From: Novipirellula artificiosorum
Lineage (GTDB): Bacteria; Planctomycetota; Planctomycetia; Pirellulales; Pirellulaceae
Length of the DNA: 64,000 nt
NCBI RefSeq assembly: GCF_007860135.1
Contig: NZ_SJPV01000021.1
Coordinates: forward strand, 1 to 64,000
Reading direction: 5' to 3'
Part shown: piece after piece, positions 9,476 to 41,161 of the stretch
Layout: the number at the start of each line of letters is the position of its first letter
How positions within the stretch are numbered: position 1 is the first letter of the stretch
The notes under the pieces: model-generated
What the model saw: only the letters and a program-made list of their open reading frames with translations
Database searches by the model: none
Told to the model about the DNA's origin: nothing
Position numbers and translations under genes: made by a program

Positions 9476-9769
9476 AGGAATTTACTTAACGCTTTATCTT
9501 ATCTAATCTTCATGTATCGCTTCGAAAAGCGATCGCTCATCAATGATCGGTATCTGCGCGATGGCGAAAGAGAGACCGATTGTAATCAAGTGAAGCCAAG
9601 CCAAACACTTGATCTGATCATTGAAGTGTCGATTTTGGCTTAATCGACTGCGTCTGGCGGGGACGAGGAAAGCCACAAGGCATCACCCCTACAGACTTTA
9701 CACCCCATGGTATACTGGAAAGACCTCTTCTCCGATTTGCCTTCCGCCAAACCCGCCTGGAACCTCCTC

Positions 9770-14155: not shown

Positions 14156-16375
14156 TCATTCCTTTGTCTGCCAATCAGGCTCCTGGATACCGCCGAGGTC
14201 GTAATACTGCTGTAGAACAACTTCATCGTAGGCATGCCAGTCGGGGAAGGATCGGTTTCGCTGCAAGTCCACGCCGATGTAGAGTGCATCCATGATGTCT
14301 GTGTATCGGCGCCAGGCACAGTATGCTTTGCCCATCGACTGCTTCGCCTTCTCTTTCTCGCCCTGCAGGTCGTAGATCACCGCGCGAAACTTTTCGGCAT
14401 TGAACTGTCCCATGTATGCTTGCGCGGTCAAATCTCTCAGAGTGAGTTGCAACTCGACATTCTCACCGGGCTTCAGAGTTGCCAGTATCTCCAAGGCCTT
14501 CGCCGATAGCGTATCGATCTTTTCAATGTTATCCCAAGCAGACACTTTTTGGCCGGCTTTGCCATCGGCTGTCTCCCGCAAAGACGCGAGCTTGGAGCCT
14601 GCAAAAGGAGTCGCTTCTTTCGTGTCATCCACGGAGAAGTGGCGTCCAGCCTTTCCTTGCCACATGTCACCCGTCCAGAGCTCAGGCCAGAAATCGGCAT
14701 CGAACTGCCATTTGCCAGTGACCTGTTCGTTAGCGAGCCGGATCGCACCTGACGCACAGCTCCAAGCTTCGAAAAGTTTATCGGACGGCACCTCGGGAAA
14801 CCTACTAGCAAGATGTTGCTTGAAATAGTCGTCGGAGATCGATGGATTGTAGGAGATCCGTCCCCACAGCTTCTGCATGTACCAAGTGCGCTGGACGCTC
14901 AGCGCATCCCGCTCCGTGTAGTAAGGGTTCTTGCTAGCGAACTCCTTGCCAAACACCCAGCCATCCGCGCCGATGTAAAAGCCCGTTACATACTTGTCGA
15001 TCGAAGGAAAGCCACTGATATAGTCGCGAACAAACTGCGGCTCCGCCCAGTGCAGGAAATAGAAATCGTCGTTCCGCACGGTCAACCACGACTTGATGCC
15101 GAATTTGCTAAGCCCTCGCTCCATTCCCGTCCGATGCCAGCGCGCCGGAGTAACGGTGGAATGAGCGTGCGCCTCGGAATACTTACACGACAAGTCCATT
15201 CGCACGTTGGGGAGATCGTTCAACTGGGCGAAGTGCTTTAAGATGTGGTCAATATCGCCGTCGTGCTGGCGATGGATGAACACGATGTCTCGCGATGGGT
15301 TTTCCTTTGCATATTGCATGACGCCTTTGCCGAAGGAATCCCAGGCCCATTCTTCCTTTTGACTGGCATCCAGTTTCCCCATTTTTTCTCCCACCGTGAT
15401 GCCAAACCCCTTGAGGTCAGGATAGGTCTGAAAGAGTTGATGCACTGCTTTCCTCAGATACACCCTGGTCTTTTCATTATCCGTCTCGTCTGTAAGGCCA
15501 TGCTTTCCCTCGGCGGTCGAAAGGAAAACGCTCCAATTACAGATGTAGATATCAAAGCCACGTTCTCGGCCATACTTCATCACTTCGCGCCAATACGCAA
15601 CCTTTTCATCAATCGTCAAGTCGTTCACTTTGACACGCTTGCCCGCCGCGTCAAAGCCAGTCACACCTTGGATGGCGATACCGGGATACTCGTCCTCCAT
15701 ATTGACCATTGAGGTAAATGGGTGGGGTGACCAAAGTGACAAAACGTTGTAGCGATGCCGCGCCATTTCATCGAACCATGTCTTCCAGAATCCCAGGTCC
15801 CAGACATCCTTGATGGCCAGCTTATGAGATGTGCCGTTGTGGCCGTAAAAATAAGTAGGGGATTCTTTGTCCAGCGGGATGTTAAACTTGATGCCACGAT
15901 TCTTGAGATGCGGTGATTCCTCTTCATCGTAGGCGCGGGCGAGGTCATGGAACTGGATGTATTCCGCCAACTGCAAACCACCATACATCGCGCCGTTGGG
16001 GTCGCCTCCCAGCACCCAGTAGCTGATGTCTGGTTGGGTTGTGGTGCGGAGGGCGTAGGCTTGCGCAGCCAAAACATTAACAGGCTTGCCACCTTGGGCT
16101 GAAAGCAGGGAAGCGGCGGCTTCGTCAGTGGCGACAGCGAGGACGATCTTCTTGCCCGCACCGGCTTTTGCCACCTCTGCCAAATCGTGCGTCTCAACTC
16201 TGTGGCTTTGCTTTTCGAGAGCCGCCTTGATGTCGCTAGCAGCAAAGGCGATCTGTGGTACGCCTGGATCATAGTAAAGTCCAACGGCATCCGCCCCTAA
16301 GCAGGCGAAGGAACCCGCGAACGTAAAGAGCAACCAGGCGACAGTGGCGATTTGATTTAAGGACTTGCTTTTCAT
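14156..16375 (-). CDS. GH67-like (alpha-glucuronidase-related) secreted protein
   Basis: 739 residues with signal peptide. An N-terminal alpha/beta domain (QIAFAASDIKAALEKQ, ISYWVLGGDPNGAMYGGLQLAE) resembles the GH67/GH20 non-catalytic domain. A TIM-barrel-like region follows: NRGIKFNIPLDKESP, ARHRYNVLSLWSPHPF, GFGITVGEKMG, SWLTVRNDDFYFLHW. It contains several conserved Glu/Asp but I cannot name the catalytic pair. It has a close architectural paralogue at 35145-37355, of almost identical length. An alpha-glucuronidase-like role on acidic glycans is plausible, not shown. Its start lies directly beside the left end of an IS element, which may have displaced its promoter. Confidence 0.7.
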   Translation of the reverse strand: MKSKSLNQIATVAWLLFTFAGSFACLGADAVGLYYDPGVPQIAFAASDIKAALEKQSHRVETHDLAEVAKAGAGKKIVLAVATDEAAASLLSAQGGKPVNVLAAQAYALRTTTQPDISYWVLGGDPNGAMYGGLQLAEYIQFHDLARAYDEEESPHLKNRGIKFNIPLDKESPTYFYGHNGTSHKLAIKDVWDLGFWKTWFDEMARHRYNVLSLWSPHPFTSMVNMEDEYPGIAIQGVTGFDAAGKRVKVNDLTIDEKVAYWREVMKYGRERGFDIYICNWSVFLSTAEGKHGLTDETDNEKTRVYLRKAVHQLFQTYPDLKGFGITVGEKMGKLDASQKEEWAWDSFGKGVMQYAKENPSRDIVFIHRQHDGDIDHILKHFAQLNDLPNVRMDLSCKYSEAHAHSTVTPARWHRTGMERGLSKFGIKSWLTVRNDDFYFLHWAEPQFVRDYISGFPSIDKYVTGFYIGADGWVFGKEFASKNPYYTERDALSVQRTWYMQKLWGRISYNPSISDDYFKQHLASRFPEVPSDKLFEAWSCASGAIRLANEQVTGKWQFDADFWPELWTGDMWQGKAGRHFSVDDTKEATPFAGSKLASLRETADGKAGQKVSAWDNIEKIDTLSAKALEILATLKPGENVELQLTLRDLTAQAYMGQFNAEKFRAVIYDLQGEKEKAKQSMGKAYCAWRRYTDIMDALYIGVDLQRNRSFPDWHAYDEVVLQQYYDLGGIQEPDWQTKE

Positions 16376-16530
16376 TGTTATTACTAGGCTTTGTTTCTAA
16401 AGTGTTGAGTCGTAGCGGAAAGGAAGCGTCCGAAAAATTGTTGAAAGTTGAAAGATGGTCTCCCGGAGGGCAGAATCTGCCCTTCGCAATCTTTCAATTT
16501 TCGTCGGCTGGAACCGACGGGGAGACCATC

Positions 16531-17739
16531 ATGAATGAAGTTAGTCTTTTGCAATCGCTCGGGCAAGTTTCTGCGTCCGAAACCGGTCAAGTCTTTCGAG
16601 ACTTCTTGCGTGGGCACATCCGCGAGATGATCTGTGAAGTCATGGCCGCTGAAGTCACCGAGCTTTGCGGTCCCAAGCATGCTCCGTCGGGAGGCGATCA
16701 CTACCGAGCAGGGAGCAGTCCCGGTCGGGTTCTCTACGAAGGTGAGCGTGAGCAGGTCGTTCGTCCTCGTGTCCGCTTGAAGTCTGAGGATGGCAGGAGT
16801 CAAGAAGTTGAATTGGCCAGCTATCGAATCGCCAAGGATCCCGAACAGCTCCAGTCGCAAATCGTTCAGGCGATCGTCTCGGGCGTGAGTACTCGCGGTG
16901 TCGAAGAGATCAAGCCGAGTTCCCCTGGTGTCAAACGATCCAATGTGTCGCGATTGTGGCAAGAAGCCGGTAGCAAGTTCGTCGAACAACTGCGAAGCAA
17001 AGACCTAGCTTCGACGACCTGCTGTACGTTGATGCTCGATGGCATTCGGCTCAGTAGTGAGCAGACCGCCGTGGTGGCATTGGGAATCGACAGTGACGGT
17101 CACAAGCACGTGCTCGATTTCTCTCTCGGAAGCAGTGAAAACCTGGAAGTTTCGCGTGAATTGGTAGGCCGCATCGTGACTCGTGGATTCGGTTGCGAGC
17201 ATCGATTGTTTGTCGTGCTTGACGGCAGTGATGCGTTACGTGGCGCGGTCAGGGAGTTCTTTGCTGATGCAGTCGTGCAGCGTTGTTTGGTGCACAAGGA
17301 ACGGAACATCAAGGGCAAGCTTTCGAAATGTCACTGGGGCGAGCTGTCGCGTCTGTTCACACGTCTTCGCAGCGTCCAGGGGATCGATGCTGCCGAAGAA
17401 GTGTTCTCCGAGCTGAAGGGATTCCTCGAGCCGATCAACGCAGAGGGGTACCGGAGCTTGCATGAAGCGGGCGATGACCTATTGGCGCTGCACCGACTGA
17501 ATGTTCCCAACACGCTACATCGTTCGCTGCTGAGCACCAACGCGATTGAGAATTCATTCTTGAACACGAAACGCAAGCTGGGTCGCGTGACACGTTTTCG
17601 GGCAGACACGGACCAGGCAAGTCGCTGGCTCTCGTGCGCGCTGCTGGAGGCAGAGAAAGGGTTTCGAAGGATCTCCGGCCACCACTCACTGAAGCATCTG
17701 ATCGCGGCCCTGCAACGCCCCGGAGGCATCACTAAGTGA
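16531..17739 (+). CDS. IS256-family (mutator-type) transposase
   Basis: 402 residues from the ATG at 16531, which has a GGGAG ribosome-binding site 7 bases upstream and matches the family's usual start. The DDE triad is visible: Asp170 in LMLDGIRL, Asp231 in VVLDGSDALRG, Glu340 in STNAIENSFLNTKRK. The Cys-Leu-Val-His-Lys motif (QRCLVHKERNI) between the second Asp and the Glu is also typical. The frame is uninterrupted, so the element may be active. An in-frame extension to 16375 exists but overlaps the inverted repeat and is rejected. Confidence 0.93.
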   Translation: MNEVSLLQSLGQVSASETGQVFRDFLRGHIREMICEVMAAEVTELCGPKHAPSGGDHYRAGSSPGRVLYEGEREQVVRPRVRLKSEDGRSQEVELASYRIAKDPEQLQSQIVQAIVSGVSTRGVEEIKPSSPGVKRSNVSRLWQEAGSKFVEQLRSKDLASTTCCTLMLDGIRLSSEQTAVVALGIDSDGHKHVLDFSLGSSENLEVSRELVGRIVTRGFGCEHRLFVVLDGSDALRGAVREFFADAVVQRCLVHKERNIKGKLSKCHWGELSRLFTRLRSVQGIDAAEEVFSELKGFLEPINAEGYRSLHEAGDDLLALHRLNVPNTLHRSLLSTNAIENSFLNTKRKLGRVTRFRADTDQASRWLSCALLEAEKGFRRISGHHSLKHLIAALQRPGGITK

Positions 17740-18249: not shown

Positions 18250-18300
18250 CACAACCCAATTGGAATGAATCGGAAGCCGTTTGAGCATTAGGTGGAACTC

Positions 18301-19287
18301 ATGAGAAGCATGTTTTTGATATTGTTTTTGACAACGGCATTTTGCCAAGTCCAAGCGTTTGCTCAGAAATCGTCCGAAGCGTTTCGCTTTGTCGAATCGC
18401 CAGGTGAATATGTCGATCTGAAATTCGGCGACCGAAATGTGCTTCGGTTTATCAATCGCCCCCATGACGGAAGCACCGGCGATTCGCATTACATGAGTTT
18501 TAAACCTTTCCATCAAGTCTTCGATCCGAAATCAGGGACGATTCTGTTGTCGAGCGGAGTCCACCCAAAAACTAACGAGTTCAAGTTCCCCCATCATCGC
18601 GGACTGTTTTTTGGTTTCAACCGAATCAGCTTTGGCAATGGACAAACGGCAGATATCTGGCATGGAAACAAAGGAGTATTTAGCAACTGTAACGCGATCA
18701 CGAATATGACCGCAGATGAAAAGAGCGCGGCGCACACGGCAGCGATTTCTTGGCATGCAGAGGATGGGAACACATTTGCGGAAGAGATTCGCAAGGTAAC
18801 GGTCTACAACATTTCCGGAGGAACTCAGCTCGATTGGTCGACAACCTTGACAACCAAGTTGGATTTGGTGCGATTGGATGGTGATCCACAACATGCTGGC
18901 TTTCATTTTCGAGCAGCCCAAGAAGTGGCTCAAACAACGGCGAAACAAACTTACTATCTTCGTCCGGATGGGAAAGGCAAAGAGGGTGAGACTCGCAATT
19001 GGGACTCTAAGAAAAAGGATGAGCGAACCATCAATTTGCCTTGGAACGCCATGAGTTTTGTGGTCCAAGGAAATCGTTATACAGCCCTGAGAATCAACCA
19101 TCCGGACAATCCGAAAGAGACACGGGGGAGCGAACGAGATTATGGGAGGTTCGGAGATTATTTCGAATTCGAACTGACTCCCAGCCATCCCTTGAATCTT
19201 CGATATCGGATATGGATTCAAGAGGGAGAAATGACGAAGGAGCAATGCGAAAAGATGGCTCAGGACTTTGTTGCATCGAAATCTTAA
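18301..19287 (+). CDS. Secreted DUF6807 (PmoA-like) family protein
   Basis: 328 residues. Signal peptide (FLILFLTTAFCQVQAFA), then the hallmark regions of the DUF6807/PmoA family: FINRPHDGSTG, GVHPKTNEFKFPHHRGLFFGF, DIWHGNKG, and a C-terminal HPLNLRYRIWI. The HHRG and DIWHG histidines suggest a metal or small-ligand site. The biochemical role is unknown; members are common beside planctomycete sulfatases and Gfo/Idh genes. ATG 18301 is preferred over a GTG three codons upstream. Confidence 0.75.
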   Translation: MRSMFLILFLTTAFCQVQAFAQKSSEAFRFVESPGEYVDLKFGDRNVLRFINRPHDGSTGDSHYMSFKPFHQVFDPKSGTILLSSGVHPKTNEFKFPHHRGLFFGFNRISFGNGQTADIWHGNKGVFSNCNAITNMTADEKSAAHTAAISWHAEDGNTFAEEIRKVTVYNISGGTQLDWSTTLTTKLDLVRLDGDPQHAGFHFRAAQEVAQTTAKQTYYLRPDGKGKEGETRNWDSKKKDERTINLPWNAMSFVVQGNRYTALRINHPDNPKETRGSERDYGRFGDYFEFELTPSHPLNLRYRIWIQEGEMTKEQCEKMAQDFVASKS

Positions 19288-19313: not shown

Positions 19314-19709
19314 GCTTCGCTGGAAAATGTAGCGGAAGTCGTCAAGACTTTCGGACCGCGCCGCCTTATTGAACGAAACTCTTGACGAGTTCCGCTACGA
19401 CGAAATCGCTGGAGGATCGCATGAAGTGCAGCGATAACTGATGTAGAGAGCGTTTTCGGAAGTACAATGCAGCGATTGGAATGTCGGCTCGGGACCAATG
19501 GCCGAAACGGTGCGGTTGGCCAATATTGCCTATCGTGAGCAAACCAACTTCACATTCAGGTAATCCTGAGCGGAGTGGCGCTGGCCACCGGTATCGTCGA
19601 GCTACGTTTTCCCATGCAAGAACGGCGGCTATCGCCGTGCCGCTCATTAACCGGTAGCATAACCTCACCAACCTTCCTCCCTGTCGGCTCAACACAAAGA
19701 CACTTGTCA
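19314..19709. other. Non-coding gap before the FAD-sulfatase gene
   Basis: No credible gene. It contains the third copy of the palindromic repeat (19329-19398). The later part has a possible -10 (TACAAT near 19466) but no clear -35. Confidence 0.5.
19329..19398. repeat. Palindromic intergenic repeat, copy 3
   Basis: Left arm GTAGCGGAAGTCGTCAAGAC and right arm CTCTTGACGAGTTCCGCTAC are near-perfect reverse complements around a 30-base centre. This is the best-preserved of the three copies in the window. Confidence 0.8.
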
Positions 19710-22679
19710 ATGAAAAGTATGTTGTTCGCGTTCCTCCTCTGCCTCACTCTACCCGTGTTTTGTGCAAACGCTCAGAGCAAGCCAGACTTGGCACCTGCAG
19801 AAGGCGATAAGTTGACGTACGACATTGTGGTGTACGGCGACTCATCGGGAGCGGCGGTGGCGGCGATCGCTGCCAAGCGCGAAGGGCGTTCGGTCATCTG
19901 GTTGAACCCCACCGGTTTCGCGGGCGGCATGAGTTCAAGTGGACTCGGTGCGACGGACTTCCTTAGCTATCGAAGTACTTTCGGCGGCATTTCCTCTGAG
20001 TTTTACGATGACGTTGCCAAAGCCTATGGAACCGACTTTGTTCGAAGCTTCGAGCCCCACGTTGGCAAGGACGTCTTTGATCAAATGATCGCGACGGCGG
20101 GCGTCAATGTGATTTACAACGAGATGCTCGACCGCACTTCAGGCAAGGGCGTGACGATGAACGGCAATCGAATCACGGCGATTACCATGCTTAGTGGCAG
20201 GACATATCACGGCAAGATGTTCATCGACGCGAGCTATGTCGGCGATCTGATGGCCGCAGCGGGAGTGACTTACACCGTGGGTCGAGAACCGGAGAGCCAA
20301 TACGGTGAGGACATGGCAGGCGTGCGCCGGGGAGATACAAACCCGCGAGTCCACTATGGCCAGAAGGACAAAGATCACTTTGTGAAAGACGTTGATCCCT
20401 ATGTAACACCAGGCGACTCCAGCAGCGGATTGTTGCCACATGTCCATCGCATTGAGGGACTCAAGAACGGCACGGGCGACAAGAAGATTCAAGCCTACAA
20501 CTATCGAGTGTGCTTGACGACCGATCCGAAGAACCGCATTCCCATCGACAAACCTGAGGGCTATCGCGAGATCGATCATGAGTTGCTGCTGCGAAACTTC
20601 GATGCAGGTGACATGCGTCTGCCAGCGTTAATCGAACCGCTCGCAGGAGGTCTAAAGGTCGATTGGAACAACATGCATGCCGTCGGTTCCGATTATGTTG
20701 GAACGAATTGGGACTATCCCGAAGCAAGCTATGAACGCCGTCGAGAAATTGAAAAGGAACACGAAACCTATATCCGTGGCTTTCTCTGGACGATGGCGAA
20801 CAACCCGCGTGTACCGGAGAGCATTCGCAAGAAGACAGCGGCATACGGTTTGCCTCGCGATGAATTCACGGACAATGGCGGCTGGCCATGGATGATCTAC
20901 ATTCGTGAATCGCGGCGCATGGTTGGCGACTACGTGACGACTCAGCTCGACTGTTCGGGCGTTCGGAAGGCATCGGACCCGGTGGGACTTGGTTCGTTCG
21001 GCATGGACTCGCATTGCGTGCAACACTTCGTCACAGACAACGGCAAGGTGCAGAACGAAGGGGTCATTTGGCGGACGCCACCGCGTCCCTACGGCATTTC
21101 CTACCGCTCCATTGTTCCAAGAAAGGGTGAGTGCGAAAACCTATTTTCTCCGATTTGCCTGTCGGCAACTCATGTCGCCCATGGTTCGATTCGGATGGAA
21201 CCAGTCTTCATGGCCTTGAGCCAAAGCGCGGCAATCGCCGCTGGACTTGCGATCGACAAAAGCGTCAGCGTGCAGGATGTGCCCTATCATGAACTACGCG
21301 ATAAGCTCGAATCGGCCAAGCAGATCGTGCGTCCTGAAACATGGAAACGGGCACCTGCTCAAAAGAAGCCTGCTGTAAAGGCGGAACCCGGAGAAGTGAA
21401 GTCCCAGGAAGTGCAGCCTCAGGAAGAATCGGCACGAAGTCCCGCGAAACAACCCAACGTAGTTCTCATCCTTGCAGATGACCTGGGCGTCGAGTGCTTG
21501 TCGGCTTACGGTGGAACTTCACATCGAACTCCCAACATCGACCGGCTTGCCAAGGAAGGAATGCGGTTCACGCGTTGCTTCAGCAATCCATTTTGTTCGC
21601 CTTCGCGAGGTTCGTTACTAACCGGCAGATACCCTTTCCGAAATGGGCTGAAAGTTGTCTTGCATAGCAAAAGCCAGGAGGACCTTTATTTGCGTCCATC
21701 CCAACCTAGTTTTGCGAGGCAACTCAAACAGCACGGTTACGCCACGCAAATCGTCGGCAAATGGCACGTTTCACTCGAGCACAAACACAACACAATCAAC
21801 CAGTTTGGTTTCGATCACTACCAGACTTGGCAGATTTTTGATGACAAGGGCTCGAAAACGACGCGGTACTGGAAGCCGTATCTCTCTCGAGACGGAAAAC
21901 CGCTTTCTGAAGAAATCAGCAACCGTTATGGTCCCGATGTAGACCTAGAAGTCTACCTTGACTTCATCAAGACCAGTGCAAAAAGCAACACGCCATTTCT
22001 TGCATACTATTCAACCTGCCTACCCCATTATCCGTGGGAACCGACGCCGGATAGTGACGTGCAAGACTATCGTGCGCCTGAGGTAAGGCACAAAGGCGAC
22101 CCGAAATTTTTTCCTGACATGGTCGCCTATCTCGATAAGCAAATCGGTCAAATGCTACAAACTCTCGATGACCTTGGCATCGCCGAAAACACGATTGTTA
22201 TTTTCCTTGCTGACAACGGAACCGACAGCGATCTGGTCAATACGTGGGGTGACGGCAAACGCATTCCTGGCGGCAAAGGGACTATGACAGACCGAGGCAC
22301 TCACGTGCCACTGCTCGTGCGTTGGCCTGGTCGTATCGTCGCCGGGACTTCTTGCGAAGATCTAGTGGATCTCTCGGATTTTCTTCCCACGATCTGCGAG
22401 CTTACCGGTGCGAAGCTGCCTGAGGAATCCATTCATGGACGCTCATTCGCACCTCAACTCTTTGGAAAGTCAGGCAATCCTCGTCAGTGGATTCACCGTC
22501 AAAACGCTGACCTTCGCCAAGTCAGAAACGATGAGTACATGCTTGACAATAAAGATCAACTGCGACGAGTCGTTCCGTTGTGGGAGGAGCCTACACCAAA
22601 AGATTTGAAGAATGATTTGAGTAAAGAAGCAGCCGCTCGCGAGACGTTGCAAGCCGTTTTCGATTCATTCGGACAATGA
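19710..22679 (+). CDS. FAD-dependent oxidoreductase-sulfatase fusion
   Basis: A 989-residue secreted protein with two complete enzymes. After the signal peptide (1-22), residues about 30-545 are a FAD-dependent oxidoreductase of the FAD_oxidored type: YDIVVYGDSSGAAVA nucleotide loop, GGMSSSGLGATD, IDASYVGDLMAAAG, and a final VFMALSQSAAIAAGLA. A Lys/Pro/Glu-rich linker (about 548-580) leads to a sulfatase (about 582-985) with LILADDLG, CSPSR (formylglycine Cys629), VGKWHVS and FLADNGTDSD. The clean linker argues for a real fusion rather than a deletion product. It may oxidise and desulfate one sugar in sequence, but this is inference. ATG 19710 is chosen because the signal peptide starts there. 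Confidence 0.88.
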   Translation: MKSMLFAFLLCLTLPVFCANAQSKPDLAPAEGDKLTYDIVVYGDSSGAAVAAIAAKREGRSVIWLNPTGFAGGMSSSGLGATDFLSYRSTFGGISSEFYDDVAKAYGTDFVRSFEPHVGKDVFDQMIATAGVNVIYNEMLDRTSGKGVTMNGNRITAITMLSGRTYHGKMFIDASYVGDLMAAAGVTYTVGREPESQYGEDMAGVRRGDTNPRVHYGQKDKDHFVKDVDPYVTPGDSSSGLLPHVHRIEGLKNGTGDKKIQAYNYRVCLTTDPKNRIPIDKPEGYREIDHELLLRNFDAGDMRLPALIEPLAGGLKVDWNNMHAVGSDYVGTNWDYPEASYERRREIEKEHETYIRGFLWTMANNPRVPESIRKKTAAYGLPRDEFTDNGGWPWMIYIRESRRMVGDYVTTQLDCSGVRKASDPVGLGSFGMDSHCVQHFVTDNGKVQNEGVIWRTPPRPYGISYRSIVPRKGECENLFSPICLSATHVAHGSIRMEPVFMALSQSAAIAAGLAIDKSVSVQDVPYHELRDKLESAKQIVRPETWKRAPAQKKPAVKAEPGEVKSQEVQPQEESARSPAKQPNVVLILADDLGVECLSAYGGTSHRTPNIDRLAKEGMRFTRCFSNPFCSPSRGSLLTGRYPFRNGLKVVLHSKSQEDLYLRPSQPSFARQLKQHGYATQIVGKWHVSLEHKHNTINQFGFDHYQTWQIFDDKGSKTTRYWKPYLSRDGKPLSEEISNRYGPDVDLEVYLDFIKTSAKSNTPFLAYYSTCLPHYPWEPTPDSDVQDYRAPEVRHKGDPKFFPDMVAYLDKQIGQMLQTLDDLGIAENTIVIFLADNGTDSDLVNTWGDGKRIPGGKGTMTDRGTHVPLLVRWPGRIVAGTSCEDLVDLSDFLPTICELTGAKLPEESIHGRSFAPQLFGKSGNPRQWIHRQNADLRQVRNDEYMLDNKDQLRRVVPLWEEPTPKDLKNDLSKEAAARETLQAVFDSFGQ

Positions 22680-22730
22680 GACTAAACGCCATACGCATTC
22701 ATGCATCTGCCTACCTTCGGATTCGCCAAT

Positions 22731-24137
22731 ATGAAACCCCAATTTCTACTCTTCGCCATAGCTGCCTTCATTTGCTATACAGCTCAAGCGGCTGATTCGA
22801 AACCAAACTTCATCGTAATCTTTACCGACGACCAGGGTTACGGTGACGTTGGGTGCTTTGGTTCAACAACGATTCGCACACCCAACCTCGATCGAATGGC
22901 GAAAGAGGGGCGTAAGTTCACGAGCTTTATGGTGGCTTCATCGGTTTGTTCACCCTCACGCGCGGCGCTCATGACCGGTTGCTATCCGAAACGCGTTGGC
23001 ATGCACAAAGGTGTGCTCTTTCCAGGCTCAACGACTGGTTTGAATCCGAACGAACACACCATTGCTGACCATTTGAAACAGCAGGGTTATACCACCGCGT
23101 GCTTCGGTAAATGGCACCTCGGACACCATCCCGAAGTGCTCCCGCCGTCGAATGGCTTCGACATGTATTTTGGAATCCCCTACTCCAATGACATGAACCA
23201 TCCCAAAAATGAAGGAAAGCCCGAGGGCGGTCCACAAGGTATGGACGAGCTTTGGAAAGACCCAGAATCGACGCTCACAAAATGGAATACGCCGTTATTC
23301 GAAAACGACAAGATCGTAGAACTGCCCGTAGATCAGAGAACGATCACGCGACGATGCACCGATCGTGCGGTCAGCTTCATTGAGCAAAACCAAGGACGCC
23401 CCTTCTTTGTGTATCTGCCCTATTCGATGCCTCACATCCCGCTGTATGTGCCCGACGACGTTCGCGACCCTGATCCAAAGCGAGCGTACATCAACACGAT
23501 CGAGCATCTCGACTCCGAAATCGGACGATTGTTCGAAAGCTTGCGTCGACTCAAGCTCGCCGAAAACACGTACGTCATTTTCGCCACCGACAATGGGCCA
23601 TGGCTGCCCTTCAAACATCACGGAGGTTCCGCTGGCCCACTGCGTGACGGCAAGATGAGCACGTTTGAAGGTGGCCAACGAGTGCCCTGCATCATGTGGG
23701 CTCCCGGTCGAATTCCGGCGGACACCGCATGCGATTCACTCGCATCGACCATCGACTTGCTGCCCACGATCGCCGCCCTGACCAGCACGCCGCTTCCCGA
23801 CGATCGATCCATCGATGGCGTCGATATTTCATCCTTGTTGTTTGGCGGCGCTAAGTCCCCACGCGAAGAGTTTCTTTATTTCAACAAGGGTGGACGCCTT
23901 GAGGGTATCCGCATCGGGGATTGGAAGTTGCTGATGAAGCAACCCCAAGATAAGCAAGACGGAGATCTTGCGAAGTCCGAAGTAATGCTATTTGACCTTG
24001 CGGCTGACCTTGGCGAACGCAGTAACCTCGCAGCCGCCAATCCGGAAATCGTCGAGCGTCTGCGTTTGCGGATGATCGAACTGGATGCTGGTATCGAAGC
24101 GGCAGCAAGGCCGGTTTGGCGAATCCCACCACCGTAA
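22731..24137 (+). CDS. Secreted sulfatase (arylsulfatase A-like)
   Basis: 468 residues. Signal peptide (FLLFAIAAFICYTAQA), metal-binding TDDQGYGDVGCFG, formylglycine motif CSPSR (Cys73), FGKWHLGHHP, FATDNGPWLPFKHHGG and a substrate-contact Lys in DWKLLM. The pattern of GSAGPLRDGKMSTFEGG is typical of arylsulfatase A/N-acetylgalactosamine-6-sulfatase-like members. It starts 51 bases after the FAD-sulfatase fusion, so the two are probably co-transcribed. Confidence 0.93.
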   Translation: MKPQFLLFAIAAFICYTAQAADSKPNFIVIFTDDQGYGDVGCFGSTTIRTPNLDRMAKEGRKFTSFMVASSVCSPSRAALMTGCYPKRVGMHKGVLFPGSTTGLNPNEHTIADHLKQQGYTTACFGKWHLGHHPEVLPPSNGFDMYFGIPYSNDMNHPKNEGKPEGGPQGMDELWKDPESTLTKWNTPLFENDKIVELPVDQRTITRRCTDRAVSFIEQNQGRPFFVYLPYSMPHIPLYVPDDVRDPDPKRAYINTIEHLDSEIGRLFESLRRLKLAENTYVIFATDNGPWLPFKHHGGSAGPLRDGKMSTFEGGQRVPCIMWAPGRIPADTACDSLASTIDLLPTIAALTSTPLPDDRSIDGVDISSLLFGGAKSPREEFLYFNKGGRLEGIRIGDWKLLMKQPQDKQDGDLAKSEVMLFDLAADLGERSNLAAANPEIVERLRLRMIELDAGIEAAARPVWRIPPP

Positions 24138-39158: not shown

Positions 39159-40067
39159 ATGTTTAGAATTAGAAACGTCTTGGCTGCGTTGCTGTTGACG
39201 CTCGTGGGCTTGGAGGTGATTCAAGCAGAATCACCTCAGAGCGATTCGAGAGAAAGCGGCAGTAGTACCCAACATAGCATGGGGGCCCAATTTGCTGTCC
39301 GTATGGAAGGCTTGTTAGCACGACTAAAGTCGACCAGCTATCAGCACACGACGGAGATTGACGAGGGCAAAGGGGTGGTCAATTGTGACTGTTCGGGGAT
39401 CGTGGGGTTTGTCTTGCGACAGGAATTTCCGGAGGCTTACCTTTCGTTGCAAGGCAAAGAAGCCTCGTGGCGAAAGCGACCTCTTTCTGTAACGTTTTAT
39501 GAAACATTTGTGGCTGCTTGCGAGGATGGAACCGGGACTTGGAAAAGCGTCGACAAGCTCATGGATGTCCTCCCTGGCGATATACTCGCTTGGCGAAAGA
39601 AGAATCTCGACGCCGACTCGACGACCGGTCACACGCTGATGATTGCCGGGAAGCCGGAACTGGTGGGAGTTGGTCGAGTTCGAATCCGCGTGATCGATTC
39701 AACGCGATCACTGCACGATGATGACACTCGTCCGGCTGGTACAAATGGTATGGGAGCTGGATACATGACGTTTCTGGTGGATGACAGCGGCAAGTGTTCC
39801 GGTAATCTCGTCGATGAACGCCCCGTCATAGCTATGATCGCAGTCGGGCGCTTGGTTCAAGCGACTGCGGCGACATCCCATCCTGAAGACTTGGAATTCG
39901 TTGGCTTGACGAAAGCCAATGCTATCGCCTTAGCTACAAAAAACCGACGAACTTCGAGGGTCATCCGCGAGGACGGCAAACCGGAACCGTTGAAGTTAAG
40001 CAGCCAAAACGGTCGTCTCAATTTTGTCGTGGCCAACGGAAAGGTCGTTGGCGTATTCCGTGGTTGA
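39159..40067 (+). CDS. Secreted NlpC/P60-like protein with I78-like C-terminus
   Basis: 302 residues. Signal peptide, then a papain-like fold resembling NlpC/P60: catalytic Cys78 in NCDCSGIVGFVLR, His158 in TTGHTLMIAG, and an intervening VLPGDILAWRK loop. The last 55 residues (GLTKANAIALATKNRRTSRVIREDG, LNFVVANGKVVGVF) resemble the I78 peptidase-inhibitor fold. The pairing suggests a self-restrained peptidase or amidase, perhaps acting on cell-wall peptide or glycopeptide. It overlaps the next gene and heads a run to 45462. Confidence 0.68.
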   Translation: MFRIRNVLAALLLTLVGLEVIQAESPQSDSRESGSSTQHSMGAQFAVRMEGLLARLKSTSYQHTTEIDEGKGVVNCDCSGIVGFVLRQEFPEAYLSLQGKEASWRKRPLSVTFYETFVAACEDGTGTWKSVDKLMDVLPGDILAWRKKNLDADSTTGHTLMIAGKPELVGVGRVRIRVIDSTRSLHDDDTRPAGTNGMGAGYMTFLVDDSGKCSGNLVDERPVIAMIAVGRLVQATAATSHPEDLEFVGLTKANAIALATKNRRTSRVIREDGKPEPLKLSSQNGRLNFVVANGKVVGVFRG

Positions 40068-40075
40068 GTGAATCC

Positions 40076-41161
40076 ATGTACGTTAAACCGTTTTCCATCG
40101 CCATCGCGTGCCTCCTTGCACCGGCATTCAGCCCAACGCTTCACGGGCAGGAGGTCGCACCTATTATCGTCGACCAATACGCGGTTGAAATCCCAGACGT
40201 AAGCCGTGTAATTGCCATTCGATTTCCACTCGAGTCGCCCGGCGGAATCGGTGTACTCATAACCCGAAACGGCGAGGTCATTCATCGAATGGGTTACGGC
40301 TCGCTGAAGGGAAAGCCCATGACGGCGCAGACACCACTGAGGCTGGCCTCGATTTCAAAACAGTTCGCTGCCATGTGTGCGGCGATACTGATGGAGGAAG
40401 GCAAGCTGGACCCGAAAGCCAAGGTTTCAAGCTATCTTCCCGAAGTGAATCTTCCAGTGAAAGGTCGCGAGCTGCTCGTGCAGGATCTGGTGTGGCATGT
40501 CAATGGTTTGCAAAACTTCATCAACAAGAAGGAACAAGCCTCCATTGCCGAATTTCGCGAACTGCGAGGTTTGGGTTTTCTCACCAATCAGACACACGCT
40601 GATTGGCTCGCAACAATGAGTCCAGTGCGCGAGCCAGGGAAGCTCTGGGAATACACCAACTCGGGTTATGTGCTGCTGGCCCGCATCATCGAGGTCATCG
40701 CCGGCGAACCGTTTCACCAGTTTCAGAAGCGACGCATTTTTGACGTGCTGGGAATGGCGGACACCACAGATAGCGAACGATTCAACGGATCGGGCAATAT
40801 GACGACGACGCTGAATGATTATGCGATATGGGACCGAGCGCTGTGGCAAGAGGATAAGCGTCTGCTATTACCGATAACATACCGAATGCTCTTCACGCCG
40901 GGCACGCTCGATGATGGCACGCGGATTGACTATGGTTTTGGATGGCACTTGAACTACGAAGGAGATCGATTGGTTTCAGTGGATCACGGTGGCGGGGGAA
41001 GCGGAACCACTGCGGCTCGCAACTTCGTGCGACGTCATCTTTCCGATCGGACCACGATCGCGTTCTTCGCGCAGGAACGTCCGACTCTCGACCTGGAAAA
41101 ACGGAAGAAGCTAATCGCAGAGGTTTACAAGGCTCAGCATCCAGAGGAAGTTAAACAATGA
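40076..41161 (+). CDS. Beta-lactamase-family serine hydrolase
   Basis: 361 residues from the ATG at 40076 (a GTG at 40064 overlapping the previous stop is also possible). Signal peptide, then the class C beta-lactamase/D-aminopeptidase fold with SxxK (Ser92-Ile-Ser-Lys95), YxN (Tyr193-Thr-Asn195) and a C-terminal HGGGGSGT. Such secreted relatives act as esterases or peptidases; substrate unknown. Overlaps the sulfatase fragment gene at 41158-41161 by ATGA, so it is part of the same transcript. Confidence 0.87.
   Translation: MYVKPFSIAIACLLAPAFSPTLHGQEVAPIIVDQYAVEIPDVSRVIAIRFPLESPGGIGVLITRNGEVIHRMGYGSLKGKPMTAQTPLRLASISKQFAAMCAAILMEEGKLDPKAKVSSYLPEVNLPVKGRELLVQDLVWHVNGLQNFINKKEQASIAEFRELRGLGFLTNQTHADWLATMSPVREPGKLWEYTNSGYVLLARIIEVIAGEPFHQFQKRRIFDVLGMADTTDSERFNGSGNMTTTLNDYAIWDRALWQEDKRLLLPITYRMLFTPGTLDDGTRIDYGFGWHLNYEGDRLVSVDHGGGGSGTTAARNFVRRHLSDRTTIAFFAQERPTLDLEKRKKLIAEVYKAQHPEEVKQ

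Follow-up and report, generated by a model that had tools for sequence, protein, structure and literature searches.

A single open reading frame in the planctomycete Novipirellula artificiosorum joins a predicted FAD-dependent oxidoreductase to a predicted sulfatase, and on sequence grounds this fusion is natural and recurrent. The gene lies in a 64,000-nucleotide stretch at the start of contig NZ_SJPV01000021.1, the whole of which was analysed and is called the window here. We put a probability of roughly 0.55 on the reading that its product is an exported bifunctional catabolic enzyme that breaks down a sulfated glycan or another sulfated organic compound, with the two halves presumably acting on one substrate.

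The fused gene (19710..22679, + strand; 989 aa) is defined by its open frame, by Pfam and by fused homologues, and runs from an ATG at 19710 to a TGA at 22679 without a stop or frameshift; an in-frame GTG lies upstream of this ATG at 19575. The only Pfam matches on the protein are FAD_oxidored, Sulfatase, Phosphodiest and SGSH_C. FAD_oxidored (PF12831) covers residues 38-533 (19821..21308) and is matched over profile positions 1-416 of 416 (E 9.4e-100, 335.2 bits against a cut-off of 27), and Sulfatase (PF00884) covers residues 582-901 (21453..22412) over positions 1-301 of 301 (E 1.8e-49, 169.1 bits against a cut-off of 25), the chain continuing to residue 989. NCBIfam names neither half over a cut-off. 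The initial annotation had described an uninterrupted frame encoding an FAD oxidoreductase and a sulfatase, and the 989 codons with both Pfam profiles at full length confirm this. It had also spoken of two complete secreted enzymes. Both domains are indeed complete, but the one signal-peptide-like stretch is N-terminal (residues 1-22, 19710..19775, assigned by eye on the translation, with no twin-arginine seen) and no other precedes the sulfatase half. The product would therefore be a single secreted chain that carries both domains in full.

Profile and motif assign the second half as a type I sulfatase with putative sulfate ester hydrolase activity. Its CSPSR motif (residues 629-633, 21594..21608, read from the translation) is present in 7 of 7 fused rows of the alignment and is taken here to be of the formylglycine type (C/S-x-P-x-R). 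Residues D590, D591, C629, R633, K684, H773, D835, N836 and K856 are identical in all 22 aligned sulfatase rows, with D590, D591, D835 and N836 presumably the metal-binding Asp/Asn residues. Residue 686 (window 21765-21767) is His in 10 of the 22 sulfatases, including that of the window and six of the seven fused rows, and Gln in the other 12, including those of loci L119 and L152; it is a possible specificity marker.

The first half is predicted to adopt a dinucleotide-binding flavoprotein fold, with putative FAD binding and redox activity. Across 32 rows, residues G43, G72, G73, D83, D179, R192, E193, R399, E400, S434, H435, R495 and E497 are invariant. A model of residues 34-545 has a mean pLDDT of 93.6 and matches flavoproteins with Z up to 17.4 over about 190 of 512 residues; Foldseek returns an E-value of 3.8e-9, with TM normalised to the model at or below 0.38 among the best 50 matches. 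Compared by sequence with solved structures, the FAD part gives nothing significant (best E 0.12). Since fold searches give general flavoprotein relatives only, the substrate of the flavin half is not readable from structure. The full-length AlphaFold2 model (pLDDT 86.3, pTM 0.59) has both domains well modelled and a relative orientation that is unusable.

Homologues were collected by scanning six peptides from the fused protein, three of them from the linker or sulfatase and so outside the FAD domain, against 84,980 species genomes, which yielded 50 loci. Four of these carry both domains in one frame. L080, from a Verrucomicrobia metagenome-assembled genome (MAG), has a fused frame of 990 codons stop to stop and is 77% identical over its whole length; L116 and L117 are two fused copies in the named isolate Neorhodopirellula pilleata Pla100; and L119 comes from a planctomycete MAG. 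A search of 241 genomes of the window's family adds two more fusions, in G585 and in G610, the latter a genome in a single 9.7 Mb contig. Among the matches listed, the fused frames were the window's, G610's and L119's in 397 genomes of the class, the window's only in 392 sampled genomes of the phylum, and L080's only in 387 sampled genomes of Verrucomicrobia. These family, class and phylum searches scored two to three candidates per genome under strict E-value limits, so the set of fusions may be incomplete; additional long frames from among the matches listed were inspected by sequence and contain no FAD-sulfatase fusion. No plasmid record matches with 80% cover, and the 10 plasmid matches listed are to the FAD domain only. 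With the window's own, at least seven intact fused genes are counted, spread over six genomes. The domain order of the initial annotation is thus found in six further intact genes from five genomes and two phyla, and homologues are not always encoded as two genes. Judged by the whole-length 77% match to a single frame in another phylum, together with purifying selection on the FAD part relative to its nearest relative (dN 0.031, dS 0.388, 506 codons), the fusion is beyond chance.

That nearest relative, L081 (also found as G475), has an FAD part 95% identical in protein to the window's. Its protein continues through a similar linker into TKPNIVL, the first residues of the sulfatase domain, and then into unrelated sequence; at L081:4129-7647 the fused-type gene enters a long opposite-strand frame just past the sulfatase start. 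We read L081 as the same fusion, broken later by rearrangement or by assembly. The upstream neighbour of the fused gene, a DUF6807 gene (PF14100 by Pfam; 18292..19287, + strand), is likewise upstream in L081, with 94% DNA identity between the two. L081 has a whole Gfo/Idh/MocA gene between the DUF6807 and FAD genes, and comparison with it identifies two Gfo/Idh/MocA-type remnants of 43 and 68 bases in the window (19443..19555, + strand). A transposase-like gene, recognised by eye, occupies window positions 16375-17739 between a glycosidase-like gene and the DUF6807 gene, near these remnants.

The linker (about residues 545-578, 21342..21443), delimited by sequence, pLDDT and alignment, is rich in Lys, Pro, Glu and Gln, and residues 551-578 are predicted to be disordered in the full-length AlphaFold2 model (pLDDT below 50). 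Conservation of the linker, which the initial annotation had raised as a check, is ruled out by the alignments and by an identity of 41-47% across comparisons: between the window and L080 the FAD part is 83% identical, the sulfatase 75% and the linker 41%. In the N. pilleata-type fusions L116, L117 and L119, Pfam places a Golvesin_C domain (PF25275) in the linker space, and in the alignment L150 and L151 carry an insert of the same size as those fusions; the same search finds no Golvesin_C between the enzymes of the window protein. These comparisons suggest a tether that is preserved as a tether and not as a sequence.

Split forms of the pair are common, so the fusion is one of several arrangements. 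The window-type sulfatase and the FAD oxidoreductase are separate same-strand genes in L083 (where the sulfatase frame is broken in two), L091, L121 and L122. L152 has the same gene order as the fusion, with the FAD stop followed about 30 bases on by the sulfatase ATG; its sulfatase is 57% identical to the window's, and its FAD protein belongs to another subfamily (38% identical). In L139 a 53%-identical sulfatase sits beside an FAD gene 42% identical to the window's, and in G849 the FAD gene and sulfatase are on different contigs. In a sulfatase tree of 29 rows, 7 of them fused, a single fused clade is rejected with p-AU 2.7e-97 for a group that was named after the loci were known. On an FAD tree with 76 rows three changes of state are required, of which starred branches force two, and many of its forks are open. 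With fused and split forms mixed among one another in the trees, the genes have joined or separated on more than one occasion. A single ancient fusion inherited unchanged is unsupported; a single fusion followed by several splits would still be compatible with these trees. In both trees the window clusters with L080, L083, L091 and L121, and L122 branches outside them, but agreement between them is only partial, the exceptions being L119 and L152: the L119 sulfatase pairs with that of L152, outside the N. pilleata and Verrucomicrobia groups, and the L119 FAD part groups with N. pilleata.

The FAD subfamily is frequently found next to sulfatases even where it is not fused. Of the 50 scan loci, 24 are fused or have a sulfatase within 5 kb, although the share with a sulfatase nearby may be inflated by the three scan peptides from outside the FAD domain. 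Among the unfused sulfatase frames within 5 kb, 32 of 34 are on the strand of the FAD gene, two of the 34 being pieces of one broken gene. Within 1 kb, the subfamily shows 4 fused, 15 same-strand and no opposite-strand sulfatases (n=50), whereas other FAD_oxidored loci show 0 fused, 3 same-strand and 3 opposite-strand (n=55). The difference (19/50 vs 3/55) gives a Fisher p of 6.3e-5, and 4.9e-4 when only unfused loci are counted (15/46); each set contains 12 loci with a flank shorter than 1 kb, and the comparison set includes L035, which entered through its sulfatase. The neighbouring sulfatases belong to at least three unrelated subfamilies, at most 33% identical to one another, and most near neighbours fall outside the window's sulfatase subfamily, eight of them in one subfamily (55-94% identical) and four in another (69-97%). 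Adjacency to sulfatases is much commoner for unfused members than for the remaining FAD_oxidored genes, which indirectly supports a shared pathway, and the conclusion that flavoenzyme and sulfatase work together is well supported. The flavoenzyme does not need a sulfatase partner, as 31 of the 50 loci have neither a fused nor a same-strand sulfatase within 1 kb, with the same 12 short flanks among the 50.

Other domain combinations occur around this flavoenzyme. L084:2410-6816 and L086:5806-10302 combine a same-clade FAD_oxidored with LamG in frames of about 1,470-1,500 codons. In L091:5959-8337 and L121:3-1850 the frame of a same-clade FAD_oxidored continues into a prolyl-oligopeptidase-like serine hydrolase domain, and L130:3768-6935 (- strand) holds a GDSL lipase/esterase, a more distant FAD_oxidored and Golvesin_C in one frame. 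As far as domain assignments can tell, the common theme is a flavoenzyme placed with ester-removing enzymes.

The genomic surroundings are consistent with the breakdown of a sulfated glycan that probably derives from plants or algae. The window contains further sulfatases at 9707, 12196, 22701 and 41639, of which the one at 22701..24137 (+ strand; Pfam) is a separate gene that starts 21 bases after the stop of the fused gene, as well as a GH43, a Gfo/Idh/MocA gene and a weak alpha-galacturonidase-like match. Elsewhere, a GH10 follows both fused copies of N. pilleata, unfused copies have TonB-plug receptor clusters nearby (9 and 5 loci), L083 and L091 contain SASA esterases, and in L105, L109 and L118 the sulfatase is followed by an MFS sugar transporter (one cluster; Pfam run on L109). 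Of 452 called genes, 10 bear CxxCH; they lie in 8 loci close to unfused FAD genes, and one of them, in L112, encodes DUF6797 and a cytochrome c. None is listed at the fused loci L080, L116, L117, L119, L150 and L151, so cytochrome c as the electron acceptor stays a suggestion. A 302-aa protein with no Pfam match is encoded at window 39159-40064, about 16.5 kb downstream of the fused gene and beside a serine-beta-lactamase-like gene (40064-41158); its relatives lie directly upstream of the fused gene in L117 (a short one), L150 and L151. The window's genome also carries, at C19:108014-110566 (- strand), a frame of 1198 codons that FAD_oxidored matches four times, each time in part; it may encode a tandem flavoenzyme.

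In the proposed mechanism, the sulfatase half would hydrolyse a sulfate ester after conversion of Cys629 to formylglycine, and the flavin half would dehydrogenate that molecule, or the intermediate that follows it, at an alcohol or sugar position and hand the electrons to a periplasmic acceptor. Outside the cytoplasm, the tether would keep the two activities together and at a constant ratio; no observation points to direct channelling from one active site to the other. A stricter version, which we consider rather unlikely, is a relay within one protein in which the sulfate ester is removed and the uncovered or a neighbouring hydroxyl is immediately oxidised by the flavin half, where a keto group at the neighbouring hydroxyl could help to break the next bond. 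If true, planctomycetes and Verrucomicrobia would have a redox branch in their breakdown of sulfated glycans, one that draws on several sulfatase subfamilies and is encoded in some cases as one chain and often as neighbouring genes.

Alternatively, neighbours in one degradation cluster could have been joined for convenience by loss of the intervening stop codon and secretion signal. The halves would then act on separate bonds within one polymer and gain nothing beyond matched expression and shared export. We regard this tentatively as possible. The interleaving of fused and split forms in the sulfatase tree (7 of 29 fused) and the three changes needed in the FAD tree favour it, as do adjacent split pairs in the same order such as L152, distant though its FAD protein is, and the unconstrained linker; the recurrence of the fusion and the 19 of 50 subfamily loci that keep a sulfatase joined or near argue against it. 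It is improbable that the flavin half is no longer an enzyme and now serves as a binding or structural module: its nucleotide-binding glycine motif is a variant (G-D-S-S-G), but the low dN relative to dS and the many polar residues invariant across 32 rows weigh against this.

Even less probable is a flavin half that acts as a built-in maturation domain and converts the formylglycine cysteine of the attached sulfatase by oxidation. The occurrence of an oxidoreductase with several sulfatase subfamilies, fused or adjacent, is also what a general maturation role would produce. However, 17 matches to FGE-sulfatase (PF03781), 16 of them above the cut-off, are present in the window's genome and could include the needed maturase, and when coordinates are compared only 1 of the 151 listed sulfatase matches, the fused gene, shares a frame with a listed FAD_oxidored match. 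Moreover, sulfatases 47-54% identical to the window's, with the same motif or CSPTR, occur with no FAD gene in five 14 kb stretches (L168-L172). A sequencing or assembly artefact, in which a stop or frameshift in the linker was missed, is barely credible. Breaks such as those in L081, cut within the first sulfatase residues, and in the sulfatase frame of L083 do occur in this group, but six other fused frames are intact, among them both copies of the isolate N. pilleata Pla100 and one from a genome assembled as a single contig, and the sulfatase has no second signal peptide or start region in its sequence. For the relatives, these independent fused homologues rule an assembly artefact out.

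The closest known parallel is P36 of Formosa agariphila, a multimodular GH78-S1_25 ulvan enzyme (PDB 6hr5) whose two domains have been shown to catalyse successive steps in a single pathway (PMC8511951). In P36, too, a sulfatase of this superfamily is fused to another enzyme, there one that acts on glycans; unlike P36, the window protein has a flavin oxidoreductase in place of a glycoside hydrolase, belongs to another phylum and, as far as known, uses another sulfatase subfamily. Pfam finds no GH78 domain beside the sulfatase of the window protein. Within planctomycetes, FAD_oxidored proteins with a C-terminal Golvesin_C (for example L130, L131 and L139) are of the same FAD family and have no sulfatase; the N. 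pilleata-type fusions share Golvesin_C with them, whereas the window protein is without it. Stand-alone sulfatases of the same clade (L139, L168-L172; 47-54% identical) carry CSPSR in five cases and CSPTR in L172, and are separate genes with Gln at residue 686, unlike the His of the window and most FAD-linked relatives. No flavoenzyme-sulfatase fusion is described in the titles and abstract openings of the literature searched, which was largely without subscription journals. In kind, the window protein resembles known enzyme-sulfatase fusions such as GH78-S1_25; the new element, as far as that literature goes, is the flavin oxidoreductase as partner.

The sulfatases of this genome, at least 150 in number, say almost nothing about which sugar each of them serves. 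A sulfatase that is joined to, or repeatedly found beside, one flavin oxidoreductase subfamily offers a testable lead, namely that oxidation is tied to desulfation. Fusion and adjacency also point to a function for one clade of PF12831, a family for which the sequence search gave no relative with a solved structure. Together they suggest that the two enzymes act jointly on sulfated organic matter, from a joined protein in some bacteria and from side-by-side genes in their relatives.
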